A stretch of DNA of 55,620 bases from an uncultured Pelagibacteraceae bacterium (GTDB taxonomy: Bacteria > Pseudomonadota > Alphaproteobacteria > Pelagibacterales > Pelagibacteraceae): NCBI GenBank assembly GCA_902599495.1, contig CACKFY010000006.1, positions 1-55,620 of the forward strand. The letters are read 5' to 3'. Both the position numbers and the translations under genes were made by a program. The notes beneath the pieces were generated by a model. The model made no database searches and was not told the origin of the DNA. It saw nothing but the letters and a program-made list of their open reading frames with translations. Shown piece by piece: positions 17,338 to 26,642 of this stretch; within the stretch, counting starts at the first letter, position 1; each line of letters begins with the position of its first letter.

Positions 17338-17733
17338 ATGAATACAAAATTAAATCAAATACTAGCTGAAATTTCTGCTGGAGAGCTATTGGATAAAATT
17401 ACTATTCTTGAGATAAAGAGGGAAAAAATAACAGATAGTGAAAAATTAAAAAATATAAACAAAGAGTTATCTTCGCTTACAAAAACTTCTGATGAAAAAA
17501 TACCCGATAAAAAAAGAATTGAGGATCTAATTTTAAATTTGAAAAAAATAAATCTTAAACTTTGGACTATCGAAGAAAATAAACGGAAAGCCGAAAAAGA
17601 GAAAAAATTTGATGAAGCTTTCATACAGCTCTCACGTGATGTATATAAATCTAACGATGAAAGAGCTAAAATAAAATTAAAAATTAATGAGATATTGGGA
17701 TCAAATATTAAAGAAGTTAAATCCCATTATTAA
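17338..17733 (+). CDS. DUF6165-type coiled-coil protein
   Basis: A 131-residue, highly charged, alpha-helical protein. The N-terminal AEISAGELLDKITILEIKREKI matches my memory of the DUF6165 family, whose members often sit among LPS or sugar genes in Alphaproteobacteria. The rest is Lys/Glu-rich with heptad-like leucine/isoleucine spacing and probably forms a coiled coil. No catalytic motif is visible and its function is unknown. It lies 50 bp from the divergent GT9 gene and overlaps the convergent amidase gene by 4 bp at its end. A minus-strand frame across it is a shadow. Confidence 0.72.
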   Translation: MNTKLNQILAEISAGELLDKITILEIKREKITDSEKLKNINKELSSLTKTSDEKIPDKKRIEDLILNLKKINLKLWTIEENKRKAEKEKKFDEAFIQLSRDVYKSNDERAKIKLKINEILGSNIKEVKSHY

Positions 17734-18524
17734 TCATAACTAACACTCGGAATAGTTCTTCTTAATTTGATTGGTTTTTTTGGATCAATAGTTGAAGTGA
17801 TAACGCCCTCATTTTTACCTAATTCTTTTAAAATTTTTCCATCAGGGGATACAATTAAAGAATGTCCATAAGTTTTTCTTCCGTTACAATGTTTTCCAGC
17901 TTGTCCTGGAGCGAAAACGTATGAAAAATTTTCTATAGCTCTTGCTTTTAACAAAGTATGCCAATGTCTTTTTCCAGTAGTTTCAGTAAAAGCTGAGGGA
18001 ATACTTAAAAAAATAGCTCCTTTTTTTGACATTTTTCTATACATATTAGGAAATCTAAGATCATAACAAATAGATAGGCCTAATTTTCCCCATGGAAGCT
18101 TAACAACTTTGATATTTTTCCCTGCTTTAAAAGTTTTTGACTCAAAATATTTTTCTGAATTACTTAATTTAGCATCATACATATGAATTTTATCATAAAA
18201 TATTTTTATTTTTCCTTTGTTATTAATCAGAACCGATCTATTTAATAGTTTATTTTTATTTTTTATTATAAGAGAGCCGATTAAAATCCACTTTTTATAT
18301 TTTTTTGCTAATCTTTTTATACCCAAAAGATAGGAATCCTTATTCATGGTTGTAGCAACTTGTAAAAGTTTCTTTTTATTTAATGAAAACTTTGATGATA
18401 CTTCAGGAGTTATTATTAGATCGCCTTTTTGACTTACTGCTTTTTTAATTAGGTTTTCAGTTCTTTTAAGATTATCTTTAATACAATCAGACGAACACAT
18501 TTGAATGCAAGAAACTCTAAACAT
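17730..18524 (-). CDS. Carbon-nitrogen hydrolase (nitrilase superfamily, Nit-like amidase)
   Basis: A 264-residue nitrilase-superfamily enzyme. The Glu-Lys-Cys triad is visible: Glu in ITPEVSS near residue 42, Lys in YDKIHMYDA near 112 and Cys in LSICYDLRFPNMY near 153. The last block resembles Nit1/Nit2-type proteins, which hydrolyse deaminated glutathione or omega-amides such as alpha-ketoglutaramate. The downstream FAPGQAGKHCNGRKTYGHS and the start MFRVSCIQM are also typical. It lies 63 bp downstream of the SpeD-SpeE gene on the same strand, so it may be the last gene of that operon. The exact substrate is inferred only. Confidence 0.85.
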   Translation of the reverse strand: MFRVSCIQMCSSDCIKDNLKRTENLIKKAVSQKGDLIITPEVSSKFSLNKKKLLQVATTMNKDSYLLGIKRLAKKYKKWILIGSLIIKNKNKLLNRSVLINNKGKIKIFYDKIHMYDAKLSNSEKYFESKTFKAGKNIKVVKLPWGKLGLSICYDLRFPNMYRKMSKKGAIFLSIPSAFTETTGKRHWHTLLKARAIENFSYVFAPGQAGKHCNGRKTYGHSLIVSPDGKILKELGKNEGVITSTIDPKKPIKLRRTIPSVSYD

Positions 18525-18587: not shown

Positions 18588-19628
18588 TTATCGCATCATT
18601 GATGACGCAAAATTCCATTTGCAGTCAAAACTTGGCACGTAAGCACCTGAGAGTTTTACGTTACCAAAATTTTTTTCTAAAACATTACACCATTTTTCTA
18701 TCTGTTTCGGTTTTTTGTCTTGGCTACCGACTTGAGCTGTAATTACGCCACCTTTTTTTAAAATTCTTTTTAAGTTTTTCATATTTTTTTTTGCTAAATC
18801 AATGCAATATTGATCATCATTTAAATCTACAAAAATTTTGTCATATTTTGAGTCTTCTATATCTTTTATACTTTTAAATGCGTCGCCCCAAAATGTTTTA
18901 ATTTTATTACTTTTTTTAACCTTAGAACAAACTTTAGGAAGATGTTTAAAACAAACATCCACAATTTCTGGATCGAGTTCAAACCAGTCAATATAATTAG
19001 AATTATTTTCTAAACAAGCTCTTGCTACTCCCCCGTCTCCACCTCCTATTATAGCAACATTATTATTTTTTTTACTTAGATCATAACTTGATTTAAAAAA
19101 ATTAGAGCTATAAATTTTTTCATCCTTTTCTGATACTTGAATTTCATGGTCAATGAATAAGGCGTTACCGAATTCCTCTAAATCCATTATCTCAACAAAT
19201 TGACCTGCTTTTGATGTAAATTTTTCTAAGACATTTTTGACTACATAATATTTTTTTTGACCTGGAGTACTATAAATATCATCATAAAGCCCAATACTAC
19301 TTCTATCAAAAGCATTTGTAACAACTCTTTCATGTTGAATTTCTTTTCTTAAAATCTTTAAAGCTACTTTTGGATGGACCTTTCCGCAGGTAAAAAAATC
19401 AAAACTTATTACACCCTTTTCTGGAAAAGTGTGAAAACTAAAATGACTTTCAGCTAATAATGCTACAAGTGTAAAACCCTGAGGTTGAAAACGATGTGAT
19501 GCAACATTTAAAATTTCAACTTTCGCTGCTTTAGCAATTGTATATATGATTTTTTCGTAAAATTCAGGTGTATAGTCTTTTTTTACACCTAAAAAATCAA
19601 TTGTAATGTGTTCACCAACTTTTACCAT
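18588..19628 (-). CDS. AdoMet decarboxylase-spermidine synthase fusion (SpeD-SpeE)
   Basis: A 346-residue fusion. Residues 1 to about 125 are a class 1b S-adenosylmethionine decarboxylase: LLAESHFSFHT holds the cleavage Ser (about 61) that becomes pyruvoyl, the following His, and FFTCG holds the proton-donor Cys (about 81). Residues from about 130 are an aminopropyltransferase: IDHEIQVSEKDE near 159, the SAM-binding IGGGDGGVARA near 194, ELDPEIVD near 217 and the C-terminal YVPSFDCKWNF. The protein should make decarboxylated AdoMet and use it for spermidine or a related polyamine, releasing methylthioadenosine. The DxxD region reads VDLNDD, unlike common spermidine synthases, so the acceptor is uncertain. 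It closes the mtnP-mtnA-aldolase operon. Confidence 0.9.
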   Translation of the reverse strand: MVKVGEHITIDFLGVKKDYTPEFYEKIIYTIAKAAKVEILNVASHRFQPQGFTLVALLAESHFSFHTFPEKGVISFDFFTCGKVHPKVALKILRKEIQHERVVTNAFDRSSIGLYDDIYSTPGQKKYYVVKNVLEKFTSKAGQFVEIMDLEEFGNALFIDHEIQVSEKDEKIYSSNFFKSSYDLSKKNNNVAIIGGGDGGVARACLENNSNYIDWFELDPEIVDVCFKHLPKVCSKVKKSNKIKTFWGDAFKSIKDIEDSKYDKIFVDLNDDQYCIDLAKKNMKNLKRILKKGGVITAQVGSQDKKPKQIEKWCNVLEKNFGNVKLSGAYVPSFDCKWNFASSMMR

Positions 19629-19634
19629 TAAAAA

Positions 19635-20279
19635 TTAACCTTTTTTATAATTTTTAAATTTACCTAAAACTATTTTCATTTCTTTTTTTGAAAGAATCTT
19701 AGGTATTCCGATTCTTATGGCATTAATGTATTGATGGCAAATATTTTCTATCTCTTGCGCAAGCTCAAAAGTCTTTTCAAGATTATCACCAAATGCAACC
19801 TGTCCATGATTAGCAATTAAACATGCTGACCTATTTTTTAAAGCTTTGATAATATTTTTAGAAAGATTTTTGGTACCAAAAGTTGCATATTTAGCACATT
19901 TAATGTCTTCCCCGCCTGCAACTGCAACCATATAGTGAAATGCCGGAATATTTTTTTGATGTGTTGAAATTGCTGACGCACAAGTAGAATGAGCATGAAC
20001 AATTGCTTTGGCTTCTTTTTTATTCACATAAATATCCAAATGAAATCTCCATTCTGATGAAGGTTTTGTCCTTTTTTTATCGTAGACTCCTTTTAAAGAA
20101 ACAAAGACTATATCTTTTGGTTTTAGTGTTGAATACTTCCTTCCTGAAGGAGTAATATAAAAACCTTCAACACCGTTTTCTTTAACTCTTACTGATATAT
20201 TTCCAGACCTTAAAGCTGATAGGTTAGTTAAATTTAATTTTTTTGAATATTTGATTACTTCTGTTTTAAGCTTATTCAC
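19635..20279 (-). CDS. Class II aldolase (FucA/Ald2-like), probable methylthioribulose-1-phosphate aldolase
   Basis: A 214-residue zinc-dependent class II aldolase/adducin-domain protein. Visible features are LRSGNISVR near residue 23, YITPSGRKY near 42, the catalytic Glu in PSSEWRFH near 74, the zinc ligands in VHAHS near 94 and ANHGQ near 155. It resembles fuculose-phosphate aldolase more than the MtnB dehydratase. Placed between mtnA and speDE, with a 4-bp overlap to mtnA, it probably cleaves 5-methylthioribulose-1-phosphate to dihydroxyacetone phosphate and methylthioacetaldehyde, as Ald2 does in the DHAP shunt. An MtnB role cannot be ruled out from sequence alone. Confidence 0.75.
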   Translation of the reverse strand: MNKLKTEVIKYSKKLNLTNLSALRSGNISVRVKENGVEGFYITPSGRKYSTLKPKDIVFVSLKGVYDKKRTKPSSEWRFHLDIYVNKKEAKAIVHAHSTCASAISTHQKNIPAFHYMVAVAGGEDIKCAKYATFGTKNLSKNIIKALKNRSACLIANHGQVAFGDNLEKTFELAQEIENICHQYINAIRIGIPKILSKKEMKIVLGKFKNYKKG

Positions 20280-21346
20280 TTAAATAATCCCTTTAGTCCC
20301 TGTTCTGAAGCTTCACAAACGCCTTTTTCTGTAATTAATCCTGTAACTAATTTAGCAGGTGTTACATCAAAGGCTAGGTTTAGTGACTTACTTTTCTGTG
20401 GGTATATTCTTATTCTTTTAATCTTATTATTTTCATCAACTCCTTCTATATGAGATAATTCTTCAGAATTTCTCTCTTCGATGGGTATTTTTTTGTGATC
20501 TTTAATATTCCAGTCAATAGTTGAACTTGGCAATGCAACATAAAAAGGAATGTTATTATCTTTAGCAGATAATGCTTTTAAATAAGTGCCTATCTTATTA
20601 CATACATCTCCATTTGATAAAGTTCTATCAGTTCCTACTATACACATATCGATCTTTCCTCTTTGCATTAAAATTCCACCAGTATTATCTGTAATAATAG
20701 TGTTAGGAATTTTTTCCTCGTTTAGTTCGTAAGAAGTTAAATTGGCTCCTTGATTTCTTGGTCTAGTCTCATCAACCCAAACATGAACCTTTATGCCTTT
20801 TTGGTGAGCATGATAAATTGGAGAGGTTGCTGTACCCCAGTCTATTGTAGCTAACCATCCTGCATTACAATGGGTTAAAATGTTAACTACGTCTTTTTTT
20901 TTTTTAGATATTTCCTCAATAATTTTTAGCCCATTAATTCCTATATTTTTACAAAATTCTACATCCTCTTCTGTAATTGTTTGTGCTTCATTTAATGCTA
21001 TTTTAAAAATATCATTGTTATTAACTCCAGATAATTTTTTCATCATACGATCTACTGCCCATTTCAAATTTATTGCTGTAGGTCTTGAGTTAATTAAGTC
21101 TTCACTTGATTTTTTTAAGAAAGATAAATCATTTTTTTCAATTATAGACAAAACCAATCCATAAGCTGCGGTAGCTCCAATAAGAGGTGCGCCTCGTACC
21201 TCCATGGTTTTTATAGCATTAATTGCATCTTTTATGTTTTTTAAGCTTTTAATTATAAATTTATGCGGAAGTTTAGTTTGGTCAATTATTTTTACCTCAT
21301 TTTTTTCAAACCAAATTGTTCGGTAATTCTTACCCTCAATTCTCAT
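20276..21346 (-). CDS. mtnA: S-methyl-5-thioribose-1-phosphate isomerase
   Basis: A 356-residue eIF2B-like isomerase that converts methylthioribose-1-phosphate to methylthioribulose-1-phosphate. Key motifs are EVRGAPLIGATAAYG near residue 48, the catalytic Cys in THCNAGWLAT near 159, DETRPRNQG near 192, and the catalytic Asp in VGTDRTLSNGDVCNKIGTY near 238. Length is normal for the family. It overlaps mtnP upstream and the aldolase gene downstream by 4 bp each, so the order mtnP-mtnA-aldolase-speDE is one transcript. A run of T on the plus strand at about 20893-20905 encodes a lysine string. Confidence 0.94.
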   Translation of the reverse strand: MRIEGKNYRTIWFEKNEVKIIDQTKLPHKFIIKSLKNIKDAINAIKTMEVRGAPLIGATAAYGLVLSIIEKNDLSFLKKSSEDLINSRPTAINLKWAVDRMMKKLSGVNNNDIFKIALNEAQTITEEDVEFCKNIGINGLKIIEEISKKKKDVVNILTHCNAGWLATIDWGTATSPIYHAHQKGIKVHVWVDETRPRNQGANLTSYELNEEKIPNTIITDNTGGILMQRGKIDMCIVGTDRTLSNGDVCNKIGTYLKALSAKDNNIPFYVALPSSTIDWNIKDHKKIPIEERNSEELSHIEGVDENNKIKRIRIYPQKSKSLNLAFDVTPAKLVTGLITEKGVCEASEQGLKGLFK

Positions 21347-22215
21347 TTTTTTAAAACTCTACCTGCAATAAACTTTAGTTTTTTAACTGTACTTTTAGTT
21401 TGATATTTTGGTGGTGTGATTATTGCTGTATCTAAACAATCGTTAGCAGGATCGCCTTTGATACTGAATGACTCAAAAGTTTTTATTATTTCAATAATCA
21501 TGTTTTGCGCATTGGAAGCATTTTGTTTAAGGGTTTTTATAACTGTAGGTACATCTACTACATCGTGATCCGGATGCCAGCAATCAAAATCTGTTACCAT
21601 TGCTACAGTGCAATATCTCATTTCTGCTTCTCTTGCTAACTTAGCTTCTGGCATATTTGTCATTCCAATTACATCTGCTTTCCATGACCTATATAATTTT
21701 GATTCCGCTAAACTTGAAAATTGTGGTCCCTCCATTACTAAATAAGTTCCTCCTACTTGGTGAGGTATTTGACATTTAACTAAAGCCGACTCGCAACATT
21801 TCATTAAAGAAGGGCTAGTAGGTTTGGCCATTGAAACATGTGCAACTATTTCTTTATCAAAAAAAGTTTTTATTCTAGCAAATGTTCGATCAATAAATTG
21901 ATCAACTACCACAAAAGATCCTGGGGTTAAATGCTCTTGAAGAGAACCCACAGCTGAGACTGAAACAATATCTGTGACGCCCATTTTTTTTAATGCTTCT
22001 ATATTAGCTCTAAAATTTATATTAGAGGGACTTATTCGGTGACCTCTCTTGTGCCTGGGTATAAAGTAAACTTCTTTTTTATTTAATGTGGCAGATAAAA
22101 TTCTATCTGAGGGCTCTCCCCAAAAAGTGTTTACTTTTTTCCACTTTATATTTTCTAAGCCCTCTATTTGATAAAGGCCACTTCCACCAATTATCCCAAG
22201 AATTCTTTTTTTCAT
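21343..22215 (-). CDS. mtnP: S-methyl-5'-thioadenosine phosphorylase
   Basis: A 290-residue purine nucleoside phosphorylase of the MTA/PNP type. It begins with the phosphate-binding GIIGGSGLYQIEG, followed by PRHKRGHRISPSNIN near residue 58, MEGPQFSS near 162 and the purine/ribose site IGMTNMPEAKLAREAEM near 189 with VTDFDCWH near 210. It splits methylthioadenosine into adenine and methylthioribose-1-phosphate. It is the first gene of the minus-strand operon with mtnA, the aldolase and the SpeD-SpeE fusion, and lies 43 bp from the divergent apt, which can take the released adenine. Confidence 0.94.
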   Translation of the reverse strand: MKKRILGIIGGSGLYQIEGLENIKWKKVNTFWGEPSDRILSATLNKKEVYFIPRHKRGHRISPSNINFRANIEALKKMGVTDIVSVSAVGSLQEHLTPGSFVVVDQFIDRTFARIKTFFDKEIVAHVSMAKPTSPSLMKCCESALVKCQIPHQVGGTYLVMEGPQFSSLAESKLYRSWKADVIGMTNMPEAKLAREAEMRYCTVAMVTDFDCWHPDHDVVDVPTVIKTLKQNASNAQNMIIEIIKTFESFSIKGDPANDCLDTAIITPPKYQTKSTVKKLKFIAGRVLKK

Positions 22216-22258
22216 TATTTAAAATTTAGCCTTTTTTTGTTAGATATTGAAGTTAAAT

Positions 22259-22786
22259 ATGGAATTAAAAAAATATATACGATCTATACCAGATTACCCC
22301 AAGAAAGGAATATTATTTAGAGATATTACAACTCTGATAAAAGAGCCTAAAGCTTTCAACTACTCTATAGATAAAATAATTGATATTTCAAAAAAAATTG
22401 AATTCGACAAAATATCTGCAATTGAGTCAAGAGGTTTTGTTTTTGCATCAGCTGTTTCTTATATTTTAAAAAAACCTTTAATTCTTCTTAGAAAAAAAAA
22501 TAAACTTCCTGCTGAGAGACACTCGGTGGATTTTAAGTTAGAATACGGTGAAGCAACAATTGAAGTGCATAAAGACTCTATAAATAAAAATGAAAAAATT
22601 CTTGTTATAGATGATTTAATTGCAACTGGAGGAACTGCTGAAGCTGCTGCAAAGCTTATTGAGCTTTCAGGAGGATGTATTGCTGGTTTTATTTTTATTA
22701 TAAATTTGTTTGATTTGCCTGGGAACGAGCTTCTTAAAAAAAAATCTTATTTCACTGAGAGTTTAATTGAATTTCCTGGACATTAA
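22259..22786 (+). CDS. apt: Adenine phosphoribosyltransferase
   Basis: About 175 residues, converting adenine plus PRPP to AMP. It has the Apt N-terminal IPDYPKKGILFRDIT, the IESRGFVFASAV segment near residue 60, LPAERHSV near 84 and the PRPP-binding VIDDLIATGGTA near 118. I chose the ATG at 22259 (MELKKYIRS); a longer frame from a TTG at 22247 adds only four residues. The gene diverges from mtnP, so adenine released by MtnP would be salvaged by its neighbour. It ends in a 4-bp tail overlap with the epimerase gene. Confidence 0.93.
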   Translation: MELKKYIRSIPDYPKKGILFRDITTLIKEPKAFNYSIDKIIDISKKIEFDKISAIESRGFVFASAVSYILKKPLILLRKKNKLPAERHSVDFKLEYGEATIEVHKDSINKNEKILVIDDLIATGGTAEAAAKLIELSGGCIAGFIFIINLFDLPGNELLKKKSYFTESLIEFPGH

Positions 22787-23799
22787 ATTTCTTTTTTTGT
22801 CCAAGTCTCAGGTGTTAAATTGTTATCGATCTCAATATTAATGTGATACTCGAAAGGCTTCACACCCCTTTTTTTTATATAAGCATATGTTTTTTTTATA
22901 CCTTCTTTTAAAGAAACTTTAGTTTCATAATTTAATAATTTTCTTGCTTTGTCAGCTGAACAAATTGCGTGTTTAACCTCCTGAGGGCGATCTTTTTTAT
23001 AAATTGGAGGCAAATTTATACCTGTGATATTAGAACATAGCTCAGCAACTTTATTTATTGTTACGAATTCCTCATCTGGTCCAATGTTTATAATTTGTTT
23101 ATTGAGATTTATTTGGTCTAACATAGGAATCAAGCAACTTAAACAATCATCAATATAAGAAAAACATCTTGTTTGTTTTCCATCTCCATAGATTATTGGT
23201 GCTTTACCTTGCAACATTCTATTTATCATAATTGATACTACATTTCTGAAAGGATCATCGTATTTTTGTTTCGGACCAATTATATTGTGTGGAACAGCAA
23301 TCACCCACTCTATTTTGTTTAATTCGCACAAATTTATTAATACTTGCTCAGCAGCAACTTTTGAAATTGCATATGGATCAACAGGCTTTGGCTTCATAGT
23401 TTCTGTGAAAGGGTATTCTTGTGATCCATACCTTGCCATTGAGGAGCAGAAAATTATTCTTTTAACTTTTTCATTTACAGCTGCTGAAAAAATTGAAACT
23501 GAGGCTAAATAATTATTTTTAGTAATTTCATAAGGAGAAAAAACTGATAAGCCTTCATGGGCAGTAGCAGCACAATGGTATACAATTTGAACACCTTTCA
23601 TAATTCTTTTAATTTTTTCAAAATCACAACAGTCTATATTATGAAATTCTATTTTCTTTGGTATATTATCTTCATAGCCGCCGATCATATTATCTATTCC
23701 TATTACATCATGACCTAAATTTGATAATTTTTCAGCAAGATGTGAACCAAGAAAACCGGCAACTCCGGTAACAAGTATTTTATATTGATTATTTTTCAC
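22783..23799 (-). CDS. NAD-dependent sugar epimerase/dehydratase (GalE/WbpP-like)
   Basis: A 338-residue extended short-chain dehydrogenase. The NAD motif is TGVAGFLGSH near residue 11, the acidic residue ending beta-2 is in GIDNMIGG near 36, a Ser motif FCSSMARYG lies near 119 and the catalytic YAISK near 144. The substrate half has PHNIIGPKQKYDDPFRN near 171 and YIDDCLSCLIP. This layout is common for UDP-hexose 4-epimerases and related enzymes that prepare nucleotide sugars. The exact sugar is unknown. It starts the minus-strand edge of the surface polysaccharide region. Confidence 0.83.
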   Translation of the reverse strand: MKNNQYKILVTGVAGFLGSHLAEKLSNLGHDVIGIDNMIGGYEDNIPKKIEFHNIDCCDFEKIKRIMKGVQIVYHCAATAHEGLSVFSPYEITKNNYLASVSIFSAAVNEKVKRIIFCSSMARYGSQEYPFTETMKPKPVDPYAISKVAAEQVLINLCELNKIEWVIAVPHNIIGPKQKYDDPFRNVVSIMINRMLQGKAPIIYGDGKQTRCFSYIDDCLSCLIPMLDQINLNKQIINIGPDEEFVTINKVAELCSNITGINLPPIYKKDRPQEVKHAICSADKARKLLNYETKVSLKEGIKKTYAYIKKRGVKPFEYHINIEIDNNLTPETWTKKEI

Positions 23800-23837
23800 T
23801 TAAAAATGTTTATATTTTAAATAAGTATAAATCAACT

Positions 23838-24680
23838 TTAATATATTTTAGGTCTGTACCAAGATTTTTTCAACAAAATAGAATTTAAAATTCCTTTAAA
23901 TCTGCAGTAATAAATATCTTTTTTTTCTTTATTGCGAGAAAATTTGTAAAATATTGTTTTCAAAATAGAAGATATAAATTTAGGAAAAATTTTTATTATT
24001 GCAAATAAATATCCATAATGCTTCTTGTGAAAATAAAATGAAGACCACATCCAATGCCAATTTCTAGATTTTTCCATTTCATAGTTAATTGACTCTTCAT
24101 GAGATTTCCCACCATCGTGATTAATTTTGATGCTTGTGTCTAAAAAAATTTTTTTATTTTTTTTTATGAGTCTTCTACACAAATCAATTTCCTCAAAATA
24201 TATGAAAAAATTTTCATCAAAAAACCCTACTTCTTTAAATTGTTCTAAATTTAAAAACATTGCAAAACCTTTAACATTTTTAACTTGAGATATTCCTTTT
24301 GCAATTTTCTCGTGTGAGTTTTTTACATTTTCCTGAATATATGGAGAAATTATTGCAAAATCTTTTATTTTTTTTGCTGTTGAAAAAAAATTATCGATCG
24401 CCCCATGTTGAACTACTGCATCAGGATTTATTATTAAAGCATATCTTGTTTTCACTATTGATAAACCTAAATTGTTGCCTTTTGCATAGCCCAGGTTTTC
24501 ATTTGATAAAATACACTTCAAATTTGAATACTCTTTCTCTAATTGAAACTTTAGATCTTTATCATTTGAATTTTCGATAACAATTACATTAATATCTCTA
24601 CCTAAAGATTTAACGCAATTTATTATCTTTTTTTCACTCCTGAATGATGTAATAACTGCTGTAATATCTTTATTATTCAT
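23838..24680 (-). CDS. Glycosyltransferase family 2 (rhamnosyltransferase-like)
   Basis: A 280-residue GT-A glycosyltransferase. VITSFRSEKKI and VIVIENSND mark the nucleotide-binding N-terminus, NLGYAKGNNLG near residue 63 and ALIINPDAVV near 83 include the metal-binding acidic region, and FFIYFEEIDLCRRL near 158 is the acceptor/catalytic motif common in rhamnosyltransferase-type GT2 enzymes. A hydrophobic stretch near 225-245 may touch the membrane. It is related to the GT2 protein at 27470-28339: both have DEN-F-x-YFE-x-IDLCR and end in a K-S-W/Y-x-RP motif, so they are likely paralogues. Close to rmlA/rmlB. Confidence 0.83.
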   Translation of the reverse strand: MNNKDITAVITSFRSEKKIINCVKSLGRDINVIVIENSNDKDLKFQLEKEYSNLKCILSNENLGYAKGNNLGLSIVKTRYALIINPDAVVQHGAIDNFFSTAKKIKDFAIISPYIQENVKNSHEKIAKGISQVKNVKGFAMFLNLEQFKEVGFFDENFFIYFEEIDLCRRLIKKNKKIFLDTSIKINHDGGKSHEESINYEMEKSRNWHWMWSSFYFHKKHYGYLFAIIKIFPKFISSILKTIFYKFSRNKEKKDIYYCRFKGILNSILLKKSWYRPKIY

Positions 24681-24756
24681 TTAGTATGTAAATAATTGAT
24701 TTTATAAAATAATTCTTTATTTTAACACAATTACACTAAATATTCTTGTTTCAAAT

Positions 24757-25779
24757 ATGAAAAAAATAATAGTTACGGGTGGATCTGGGTTTATAGGTAG
24801 TAATTTAGTAAATTACTTATTGAAAAAAAATTATTTTATCATCAATGTAGATAAATTAACATATTCATCAAATAATTATAATAGATATTTACTTTCAAAA
24901 AAAAATTATAAATTTTACAAATTAGACATAAATAACAAAAAAAAAATTAAGAATATTATCAAAAAATATAAACCTGAATGTATATTCAATCTTGCAGCTG
25001 AAACACATGTCGATAGATCAATAGATAAACCTTACCAGTTTATCCATTCAAATATTTTGGGAATTTTTAATCTTCTTGAAGCCATTAGAGAAAATAATAA
25101 AAAAAATAAAAAGATAAAATTAATTCACGTTTCTACTGACGAAGTTTATGGAGATGTTAAAGTAAAAAAATCTAATGAAAAATTTCCTTATAATCCGAGC
25201 TCGCCATATTCAGCTTCAAAAGCAAGTGGTGATCATTTAATAAAATCATATGTAAGAACATACAAACTACCAGCCATAATTTCCAATTGTTGTAACAATT
25301 ATGGCCCTTATCAGTTTCCTGAAAAACTAATTCCAAAGATAATTTCAAATATCTTATCAAATAAAGCTCTGCCAATATACTCTAAGGGACTTAATTCTAG
25401 AGAGTGGATATATGTTAATGATCACTGTGATGCTTTATTTCAAATTTTTAAAAAAGGTAAAGCGGGAGAAAGTTATAACGTTGGTTCTAATATAAATATA
25501 ACAAATATTAAATTAGTAAGAAAGATAATAAAAATTTTTAGAAAAAAAGGTTTTAATATTGGAAATAAAGTTAAAATAAAGTTTGTAAAGGATAGACCTG
25601 GTCACGACTTTAGATATTCTCTTGACAGTAAGAAAATTTATAGAAAATTAAAATGGAAATCAAAAACTCAACTAAATAGTGGGTTAAATTTAACCATAGA
25701 TTGGTATTTAAAAAATAAAAAATTTATAACTGCTATTTCAAAAAAACTGTATGTTAATAGAATTGGTTTAAAAATATGA
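24757..25779 (+). CDS. rfbB: dTDP-glucose 4,6-dehydratase
   Basis: A 340-residue extended SDR. The NAD-binding VTGGSGFIGSN is at residue 5, AAETHVDRSI near 80 is a strong RmlB signature, the catalytic STDEVYGDV is near 130 and the YSASKAS tyrosine/lysine pair near 155. NNYGPYQFPEKLIP and GLNSREWIYVNDHCDA also match RmlB. It makes dTDP-4-keto-6-deoxyglucose, the entry to dTDP-rhamnose and other deoxysugars. It overlaps rfbA downstream by 4 bp, and rfbC is found about 12 kb away at 37529. Confidence 0.94.
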   Translation: MKKIIVTGGSGFIGSNLVNYLLKKNYFIINVDKLTYSSNNYNRYLLSKKNYKFYKLDINNKKKIKNIIKKYKPECIFNLAAETHVDRSIDKPYQFIHSNILGIFNLLEAIRENNKKNKKIKLIHVSTDEVYGDVKVKKSNEKFPYNPSSPYSASKASGDHLIKSYVRTYKLPAIISNCCNNYGPYQFPEKLIPKIISNILSNKALPIYSKGLNSREWIYVNDHCDALFQIFKKGKAGESYNVGSNINITNIKLVRKIIKIFRKKGFNIGNKVKIKFVKDRPGHDFRYSLDSKKIYRKLKWKSKTQLNSGLNLTIDWYLKNKKFITAISKKLYVNRIGLKI

Positions 25780-26642
25780 TAAAAAAAGGAATTATTTTAG
25801 CAGGTGGTCTTGGGACAAGAATGAGTCCAATTACTAAATCAGTCAATAAACAATTATTACCAATTTACGATAAGCCACTAATTTTTTATCCACTCTCAAT
25901 TCTTATGCTTGCAGGCATTAGAGAAATCTTAATAATTGTTAATAAAGGTCAAACTAATCAATTTAAAAAAGTTTTAAAAAATGGAGAGAGTTTTGGCGTC
26001 AAAATTATTTACAAGGAGCAAAAGAGTCCAAATGGTTTACCTGAAGCTTTTATCATCGGAGAAAAATTTATTGATAATAATGGAGTTGCTTTAATATTAG
26101 GTGATAATTTTTTTTATGCTCAAAGTTTAACTAAAACTTTACAAGAGGCTACAAAATTGAACAAAGGTGCAAAAGTTTTTTTACATCCAGTTAAAAATCC
26201 AAAACTTTATGGAATAGCGACAATTAAAAATAAAAAAATCATTAGTTTAAAAGAAAAGCCTTTGTCCGCAAAATCGAACCTAGCAGTAACTGGTTTATAT
26301 TTTTTCGACAAAAATGTTGTTAAGCTAAGTAAAAGCCTCAAACCTTCAAAAAGAAAAGAGCTTGAAATTATAGATCTGTTAAATAAATACAGGAAAAAAA
26401 ATAATTTAAGTGCAGAGTTTTTAGGAAGGGGTGGTGCGTGGTTAGATGCAGGATCGATTGATGATTATTACGACACTACTTCTTTTGTTTCAGCGATTGA
26501 AAAAAGACAAGGTTTTAAAATAGCATGTCTTGAAGAAATAGCTTTAAATAAAAAGTGGATTAACAAAAAAGATCTAGGTGAAAGTATCAAGTTTTATGGT
26601 AATTGCGATTACTCTAGATATTTAAAGGAAATACTATTTTAA
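25776..26642 (+). CDS. rfbA: Glucose-1-phosphate thymidylyltransferase
   Basis: A 288-residue nucleotidyltransferase. The signature GIILAGGLGTRMSPIT begins at residue 4, KQLLPIYDKPLIFYPLS follows near 25, LGDNFFY near 107 holds a metal-binding Asp and SLKEKP near 155 a conserved sugar-site region; GGAWLDAG near 220 is the second metal/substrate loop. It makes dTDP-glucose from glucose-1-phosphate and dTTP, upstream of RfbB, with whose gene it overlaps by 4 bp. Ends in a 9-bp tail overlap with the DUF4422 gene. Confidence 0.94.
   Translation: MIKKGIILAGGLGTRMSPITKSVNKQLLPIYDKPLIFYPLSILMLAGIREILIIVNKGQTNQFKKVLKNGESFGVKIIYKEQKSPNGLPEAFIIGEKFIDNNGVALILGDNFFYAQSLTKTLQEATKLNKGAKVFLHPVKNPKLYGIATIKNKKIISLKEKPLSAKSNLAVTGLYFFDKNVVKLSKSLKPSKRKELEIIDLLNKYRKKNNLSAEFLGRGGAWLDAGSIDDYYDTTSFVSAIEKRQGFKIACLEEIALNKKWINKKDLGESIKFYGNCDYSRYLKEILF

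Follow-up and report, generated by a model that had tools for sequence, protein, structure and literature searches.

A probable DHAP shunt for methylthioadenosine in one operon with a SpeD-SpeE fusion in SAR11 bacteria

In the available parts of the literature, accounts of the DHAP shunt concern bacteria of soil and freshwater as well as extraintestinal E. coli, and not SAR11. R. rubrum and R. palustris use MtnP, MtnA and the aldolase Ald2, and in R. rubrum the shunt genes form an operon (PMC5893883, available text). The E. coli shunt, mtnK-mtnA-ald2, uses Pfs and MtnK, unlike the phosphorylase variant of SAR11 considered here (available sections of PMC10986504 and PMC12632272). In B. thuringiensis, the aldolase DrdA (PDB 6btd) belongs to a 5-deoxyribose salvage pathway with the same reaction order, which differs by its kinase route and its 5-deoxyribose substrate (PMC6079011, as far as its available text goes). 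Homologous SpeD-SpeE fusions of Pelagibacter HTCC1062 and HTCC7211 have been assayed and polyamine synthesis was reported, and genes for methylthioadenosine (MTA) beside this same fusion are not mentioned in the available text of that study (PMC11107197). In the literature searched, which covered few subscription papers, no description of a DHAP shunt or of MTA salvage in SAR11 was found. Green et al. 2011 (PMC3196669) is a further reference on the Pelagibacter SpeD-SpeE fusion.

The window analysed here, a whole stretch of 55,620 nucleotides, comes from a genome of the Pelagibacteraceae (SAR11) whose assembly is 78% complete. It encodes mtnP, mtnA, a FucA-like aldolase and a SpeD-SpeE fusion, all co-directional, with apt on the opposite strand (Table 1). 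The earlier note had described one operon joined by 4-bp overlaps. The common direction of the genes and two of the three junctions (mtnP/mtnA and mtnA/aldolase, each with a 4-bp overlap) agree with that description, but the aldolase and the fusion are separated by a 6-bp gap. The divergent position of apt beside mtnP was confirmed by the coordinates. In profile scores, mtnA and Apt exceed their equivalog cut-offs, and MtnP lies just below the more specific model NF006492 (434 vs cut-off 437 bits). The SpeD and SpeE domains are both found within a single protein, which corresponds to the Pelagibacter-type fusion. No riboswitch or other RNA at or above the gathering threshold was found at the operon; a single tRNA was the sole RNA match in the window.

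Table 1. Features of the locus and the profile scores that support their identity.
Feature	Position	Strand	Remarks
nit, carbon-nitrogen hydrolase, downstream	17730-18524	-	CN_hydrolase 172 bits
SpeD-SpeE fusion (AdoMet decarboxylase + aminopropyltransferase), putative MTA source	18588-19628	-	AdoMet_dc 94 bits and Spermine_synth 88 bits, both above Pfam cut-offs
FucA-like class II aldolase, proposed methylthioribulose-1-phosphate aldolase (Ald2-type)	19635-20279	-	GTG start; Aldolase_II 167 bits
mtnA, methylthioribose-1-phosphate isomerase	20276-21346	-	TIGR00512 429 vs cut-off 279 bits
mtnP, 5'-methylthioadenosine phosphorylase, first gene of the operon	21343-22215	-	TIGR01694 294 vs cut-off 275 bits
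Short intergenic stretch between the starts of mtnP and apt, which diverge	22216-22258	.	A nucleosidase-like gene takes the place of mtnP opposite apt in complete genome G449
apt, adenine phosphoribosyltransferase, divergent	22247-22786	+	TIGR01090 194 vs cut-off 186 bits; start TTG 22247 or ATG 22259

This locus is probably the DHAP shunt in a SAR11 form, sharing an operon with the enzyme that supplies its substrate. The fusion would decarboxylate AdoMet and transfer the aminopropyl group to an amine acceptor, with MTA as the by-product. MtnP would cleave MTA by phosphorolysis into adenine and methylthioribose-1-phosphate; adenine would be converted to AMP by Apt, the product of the divergent gene, and methylthioribose-1-phosphate to methylthioribulose-1-phosphate by MtnA. 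The aldolase would then split methylthioribulose-1-phosphate into DHAP and 2-(methylthio)acetaldehyde. In this way the block may clear an inhibitory by-product and recover the purine, three carbons and the phosphate. What each of these proteins catalyses is inferred from sequence, and this holds most of all for the substrate of the aldolase. The earlier proposal of a DHAP-shunt-type block for MTA disposal in an operon with the MTA-producing enzyme is supported by the sequence. Its description as a self-contained unit does not hold, since the amine acceptor must be supplied from elsewhere and a complete relative (G449) keeps apt and the fusion without the three-gene block.

Compared with the shunt of R. 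rubrum and R. palustris, the SAR11 locus has the same three gene families (PMC5893883, in its available part), and its aldolase falls among alphaproteobacterial aldolases that mostly lie beside mtnA. The SAR11 genes differ in being joined to the SpeD-SpeE fusion and divergent from apt, and no enzyme that would act on the methylthio-C2 product was identified. The MtnA is 55% identical to MtnA of E. coli S88, and the aldolase, of the same superfamily, is 39% identical to its counterpart in the S88 shunt. The annotated shunt cluster of S88, unlike the SAR11 operon, has no polyamine gene. DrdA was matched as a class II aldolase with 138 bits. The pathway and the fusion are already known; the operon and the in-place swap described below look new.

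Among the confirmed loci of relatives, the best 80 of 590 were compared by name. The fusion comes directly after the aldolase in all 80 of these, mtnA stands ahead of the aldolase in 79, mtnP is present in 71 and a divergent apt in 65; where mtnP or apt is absent, this is partly due to contig ends or to inserts beyond which the gene lies. The constancy of the aldolase-fusion and mtnA positions indicates that the arrangement is not a product of chance. Some relatives carry variable genes inserted within the operon. A count by genus had suggested that the unit is universal in SAR11, and this was overturned by the genomes at least 90% complete, of which 93 out of 140 carry it. Outside the family, mtnA was found in the short flank of 22 of 28 homologous aldolase loci, mostly the best-scoring ones, and mtnP in 2 more; G089 was left out of the completeness estimate. 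Pattern matches to the aldolase, the fusion or the nucleosidase described next were seen in viral contigs, none of which was confirmed as a relative.

In G449, a nucleosidase-like gene stands between apt and the fusion, where mtnP-mtnA-aldolase would be, and the fusion of this genome is 63% identical over 344 aa to that of the window. Another complete genome, G435, has a nucleosidase beside apt, with neither the shunt nor the fusion. The nucleosidases of both genomes belong to the PNP_UDP_1 superfamily, and their best solved matches are MTA/SAH nucleosidases. The G449 gene exceeds the PF01048 cut-off (52.7 vs 25.1 bits) and its product falls below TIGR01704 (58 vs cut-off 73.8 bits) and a further NCBIfam equivalog (87 vs cut-off 129 bits). 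The protein shares the superfamily of the MTA/SAH nucleosidase (Pfs/MtnN), but it is short, with 174 aa, lies below the equivalog cut-offs and is encoded divergent to apt. The shunt and the nucleosidase are expected to share one activity, the release of adenine from MTA. Since G435 has the nucleosidase without the fusion or the shunt, at least this gene has work beyond fusion-derived MTA. With a nucleosidase-like gene at its site in one complete relative, the three-gene block appears to behave like an exchangeable cassette.

The earlier note had reported no mtnBCD-type genes, and a wider search bears this out. At curated cut-offs, MtnB and MtnD were each found in 0 of 150 relatives (positive in 2 of 14 control genomes each), and MtnC in 0 of 101 (1 of 14 controls). 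A tblastn search of G449 and G435 with MtnB, MtnD and MtnC of L168 gave no match. As the assembly of the window is a draft, this absence rests on the relatives. RuBisCO-like proteins were over the cut-off in 0 of 101 relatives (5 of 14 controls), and an MTA-isoprenoid shunt was rejected on this basis.

The aldolase itself reaches the cut-off of none of the NCBIfam equivalogs among the matches listed. Its residues E76, H95, H97, Y116, H158 and Y211 are invariant in 13 homologs and aligned with FucA positions, which we take to be the catalytic ones in FucA. That it is a sugar-pathway L-fuculose-phosphate aldolase merely located in the operon would fit its best solved-structure match, E. coli FucA (162 bits), and its top NCBIfam models, which are those of FucA. 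However, it reaches 186 bits against the 400-bit cut-off of the FucA equivalog TIGR01086, no fucose genes were seen among the translated neighbours listed, and mtnA accompanies it almost throughout the named loci, so that we regard this explanation as very improbable. E. coli Ald2 also misses TIGR01086 (318 bits), and no model or tree sets Ald2 apart from FucA. The aldolase tree took in 15 rows of SAR11, 28 from other Alphaproteobacteria, E. coli FucA, three MtnB rows and, as the one tested Ald2 identified by name, that of E. coli; its bootstrap had not settled (0.977). The SAR11 rows were not strictly one clade, L048 from another family joining L047 and L046 falling inside. Because E. coli Ald2 and E. 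coli FucA came out as sisters (100/100), the tree cannot decide between FucA and Ald2, and clustering with fuculose-phosphate aldolases, which the earlier note had taken as evidence against its proposal, is unusable for that purpose. The expected distinction from MtnB was recovered: the three MtnB rows stood apart from the aldolase at 100/100, and the long branches flagged in the tree include two of these rows. Identity as MtnB was rejected on this separate clade, on the score against TIGR03328 (69 vs cut-off 137 bits) and on the lack of MtnC and MtnD over the cut-off in the relatives searched. Action as an MtnB dehydratase in universal methionine salvage, with later genes too divergent to detect, could appeal to the shared superfamily and that weak score, but the separation in the tree, the lack of MtnD and MtnC at cut-off in every relative searched and the empty tblastn searches make it exceedingly improbable.

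The shunt might instead mainly dispose of 5'-deoxyadenosine from radical SAM enzymes, as with DrdA, and of MTA in part or not at all. B. thuringiensis DrdA acts on 5-deoxyribulose-1-phosphate (PMC6079011, available text), in E. coli the shunt handles both substrates (PMC10986504, available text), and G435 retains its nucleosidase without a fusion. The position of the aldolase directly before the fusion, constant among the best 80 of 590 loci, points to MTA, and we consider this main role unlikely. Dual use of MTA and 5'-deoxyadenosine is likely and compatible with an MTA shunt. As to sulfur alone, the earlier note had it leave as a methylthio-C2 compound, which is not established. By way of MtnP, MtnA and Ald2, R. 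palustris forms methanethiol aerobically and can grow with MTA as its source of sulfur (PMC5893883, available text), and O-acetylhomoserine sulfhydrylase, which could recapture methanethiol, was over the cut-off in 79 of 101 relatives. The methylthio group might, with somewhat less than even probability, pass through methanethiol to methionine, as in this aerobic DHAP-methanethiol shunt. Against this recapture, no genes are known for the steps that lead from methylthioacetaldehyde to methanethiol, the draft assembly of the window, 78% complete, gave no sulfhydrylase over the cut-off, and methanethiol is reported to be a waste product that SAR11 releases (PMC6302742, available text).

SAR11 bacteria are among the most abundant in the ocean and depend on reduced organic sulfur. 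If the operon works as a DHAP shunt, one methylthio-C2 unit or one methanethiol would arise per aminopropyl transfer, possibly a marine route to volatile sulfur besides DMSP. We tentatively suggest that MTA disposal in SAR11 is a swappable cassette between apt and speD-speE, with the DHAP shunt in many lineages, recovering carbon and phosphate, and a single nucleosidase in others, giving up methylthioribose. HTCC1062 would be of the second kind if G449 is that strain; work on that isolate alone would then miss the shunt, and the shunt and the released methylthio-C2 compound or methanethiol of many abundant marine lineages could have been overlooked. The exchange provides two natural genotypes in which MTA handling is directly comparable.

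The downstream gene nit lies 63 bp from the fusion and follows it in 25 of the 80 named loci (best 80 of 590). Its top NCBIfam model is deaminated glutathione amidase, below the cut-off (209 vs 500 bits). It is possibly co-transcribed with the operon and is outside the proposed pathway.

The window carries mtnP, mtnA, a class II aldolase gene and the SpeD-SpeE fusion, which would release 5'-methylthioadenosine (MTA), in one operon, with apt divergent. The five genes lie where the earlier note had placed them, and their names were backed by family models. mtnP missed a more specific family model (434 of 437 bits), and the SpeE half of the fusion was divergent (TIGR00417, 100 of 250 bits). The 4-bp overlaps described in that note are present at the mtnP/mtnA and mtnA/aldolase junctions, but 6 bp separate the end of the aldolase gene from the beginning of the fusion. 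The spacing between apt and mtnP is 31 bp with the TTG start and 43 bp with the ATG start.

Genes of the operon and of its surroundings in the window
Feature	Position	Strand	Family evidence
mtnP	21343-22215	-	TIGR01694, 294 bits (cut-off 275)
mtnA	20276-21346	-	family model, 429 bits (cut-off 279)
class II aldolase	19635-20279	-	Aldolase_II, 167 bits
SpeD-SpeE fusion	18588-19628	-	both domains over Pfam cut-offs
apt	starts 22247 (TTG) or 22259 (ATG)	+	194 bits (cut-off 186)
carbon-nitrogen hydrolase	17730-18524		
DUF6165 gene	17338-17733		42 bits (cut-off 27)
possible surface-polysaccharide region	22783-26642		by eye

Downstream of the operon, the carbon-nitrogen hydrolase gene lies 63 bp from the fusion. 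Among the 80 named loci, which are the top-scoring ones of 590 confirmed for the aldolase, 25 have this gene next after the fusion, and in several loci of the same genus (e.g. L006) the tblastn matches of the two are just 2-3 bp apart. The region adjoining apt appears by eye to encode nucleotide-sugar epimerases, a glycosyltransferase and a sugar-nucleotide transferase.

The DHAP shunt is the simplest reading of the mtnP-mtnA-aldolase block; we infer the activities of all these particular proteins. In Rhodopseudomonas palustris, MtnP, MtnA and the shunt aldolase Ald2 are reported to convert MTA to DHAP and 2-(methylthio)acetaldehyde, detected as methylthioethanol (PMC5893883). The E. coli shunt is described as using MTA and 5'-deoxyadenosine (PMC10986504, PMC12632272), and Pelagibacter SpeD-SpeE fusions are reported to be active in E. 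coli (PMC11107197). The DHAP-type pathway and the fusion are already known; what is distinctive here is that the MTA maker and the MTA disposers share one operon. The open-access literature searched yielded no description of this operon or of its in-place exchange described below. The earlier note had the sulfur leaving as a methylthio-C2 compound, which is possible. Alternatively, it may be recaptured through methanethiol: in air, the R. palustris shunt is reported to continue to methanethiol, and MTA serves as a sulfur source for growth (PMC5893883). O-acetylhomoserine sulfhydrylase scored over the cut-off in 79 of 101 relatives and was not found over it in the window's own draft genome (911 kb, 78% complete). 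PLP-type decarboxylases did so in 92 of 101, with one match in the draft and two in many genus members. Both the missing sulfhydrylase and the single decarboxylase match may be assembly gaps. The SAR11 homologs of ornithine decarboxylase tested to date are reported to be arginine decarboxylases (PMC9992855), and therefore the amine source lies outside the operon unit.

The statement that mtnBCD-type genes are lacking was borne out among the relatives: none of 150 had MtnB or MtnD over the cut-off, and none of 101 had MtnC or RuBisCO-like proteins. Sub-cut-off matches to the MtnB model occurred in 119 of 150 relatives, mostly representing the operon aldolase within the window's genus, and falling also on a class II protein of 236 aa in four genomes. 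Weak MtnC matches (at most 27 bits, cut-off 128) occurred in 57 of 101.

Among the NCBIfam equivalogs listed, the aldolase reached no cut-off (FucA, 186 of 400 bits; ribulose-1-phosphate aldolase, 166 of 300; MtnB, 69 of 137). E76, H95, H97, Y116, H158 and Y211 are invariant across 13 aldolase homologs and align with E. coli FucA residues that we take to be the catalytic glutamate, zinc ligands and tyrosines. A 50-row tree, with bootstrap not settled and several long branches, split the aldolases at 100/100 from three MtnB representatives; these pass the MtnB family cut-off, and the genes beside them resemble MtnD and MtnC by eye. The tree placed the window aldolase in a supported set together with SAR11 aldolases and a small number from other Alphaproteobacteria. 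In the proposed phylogenetic test the contrast of Ald2 with FucA is unusable, because Ald2 of E. coli S88, from an mtnK-mtnA cluster, paired as sister with FucA of E. coli at 100/100. Four genus genomes (G014, G015, G058 and G067; L154 1381-2088 in G015) also encode another class II aldolase-like protein, roughly 236 aa long, with 65-72 bits to the MtnB model (cut-off 137).

An exchange at this position was found in G449, a one-contig relative of 1,308,759 bp without the aldolase. Its whole genome gave no notable mtnA or aldolase match, and its sole mtnP match, 21% over 116 aa at E 0.007, was weak and located elsewhere. The fusion (63% over 344 aa) and the divergent apt (72% over 175 aa) are retained 0.7 kb apart, with a single 174-aa gene between them. 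The product belongs to the phosphorylase superfamily (PF01048, 52.7 bits, cut-off 25.1), and its closest solved structures are MTA/SAH nucleosidases. Its scores, 87 of 129 and 58 of 73.8, miss the equivalog cut-offs for nucleosidases, so that we infer its nucleosidase activity. The window has no such gene. A DUF6165-like protein was seen by eye downstream of the G449 fusion as well (1155958-1156347).

Among the loci compared, the fusion nearest to that of G449 (93% identical) is in L106, which has mtnP-mtnA-aldolase-fusion on a contig that stops short of apt. A quick fusion tree, with SH-aLRT support only, nested G449 among shunt-bearing relatives. The DNA of G449 and L106 is alignable (79-83%) over 3.4 and 1.35 kb that include the fusion and sequence downstream of it; about 27 bp ahead of the fusion start codon the match stops. 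The simplest history is that the nucleosidase replaced the three-gene block in the G449 line, on the basis of one complete swapped genome and one related arrangement. The latter is in G435, a second one-contig genome from a different genus, where the same nucleosidase (64% over 166 aa) is divergent and adjoins apt, with no match for the fusion, mtnP, mtnA or the aldolase. This is evidence against linking the gene position beside apt solely to MTA from polyamine synthesis. Neither genome had a tblastn match to MtnB, MtnD or MtnC.

The operon is conserved in much, not all, of SAR11. All the 80 named loci (best 80 of 590) carry SAR11 titles: Pelagibacteraceae, Pelagibacterales or Candidatus Pelagibacter. 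The fusion follows the aldolase in all 80, mtnA precedes it in 79 and mtnP is upstream in 71, while 65 have a divergent apt. Of the 90 other genomes in the window's genus, 69 carry the aldolase. If it were universal, 67.1 carriers would be expected among the 89 with listed completeness, and therefore the absences are explainable by incomplete drafts, though G481, 93% complete, is one genus member without it. In the wider family the unit is not universal, the aldolase being found in 206 of 298 genomes, 93 of the 140 at least 90% complete, and six of ten genera. In a class sample, 82 of 289 genomes, including the window's and two others of its family, matched the aldolase at E 1e-25 or better. 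Among 28 loci inspected outside the family (27 of the best-scoring plus L034), mtnA lies in the short flank covered in 22 and mtnP in two more, and the fusion in none. The fusion itself matched eight of the 289 genomes at E 1e-20 or better: three belong to the window's family, and the other five are 25-30% identical.

In some operons, variable genes sit on one side or the other of mtnA as inserts, separating it from mtnP or from the aldolase (e.g. L035 6650-7093, L006 575-1501, L101 4679-5002). Judged by Pfam on one representative per type, the inserts in the best 80 of 590 loci are alpha/beta-hydrolase-like in 11, Tautomerase_3-like in 10 and, in seven, a small protein (about 107-111 aa) with no Pfam match; others are rarer.
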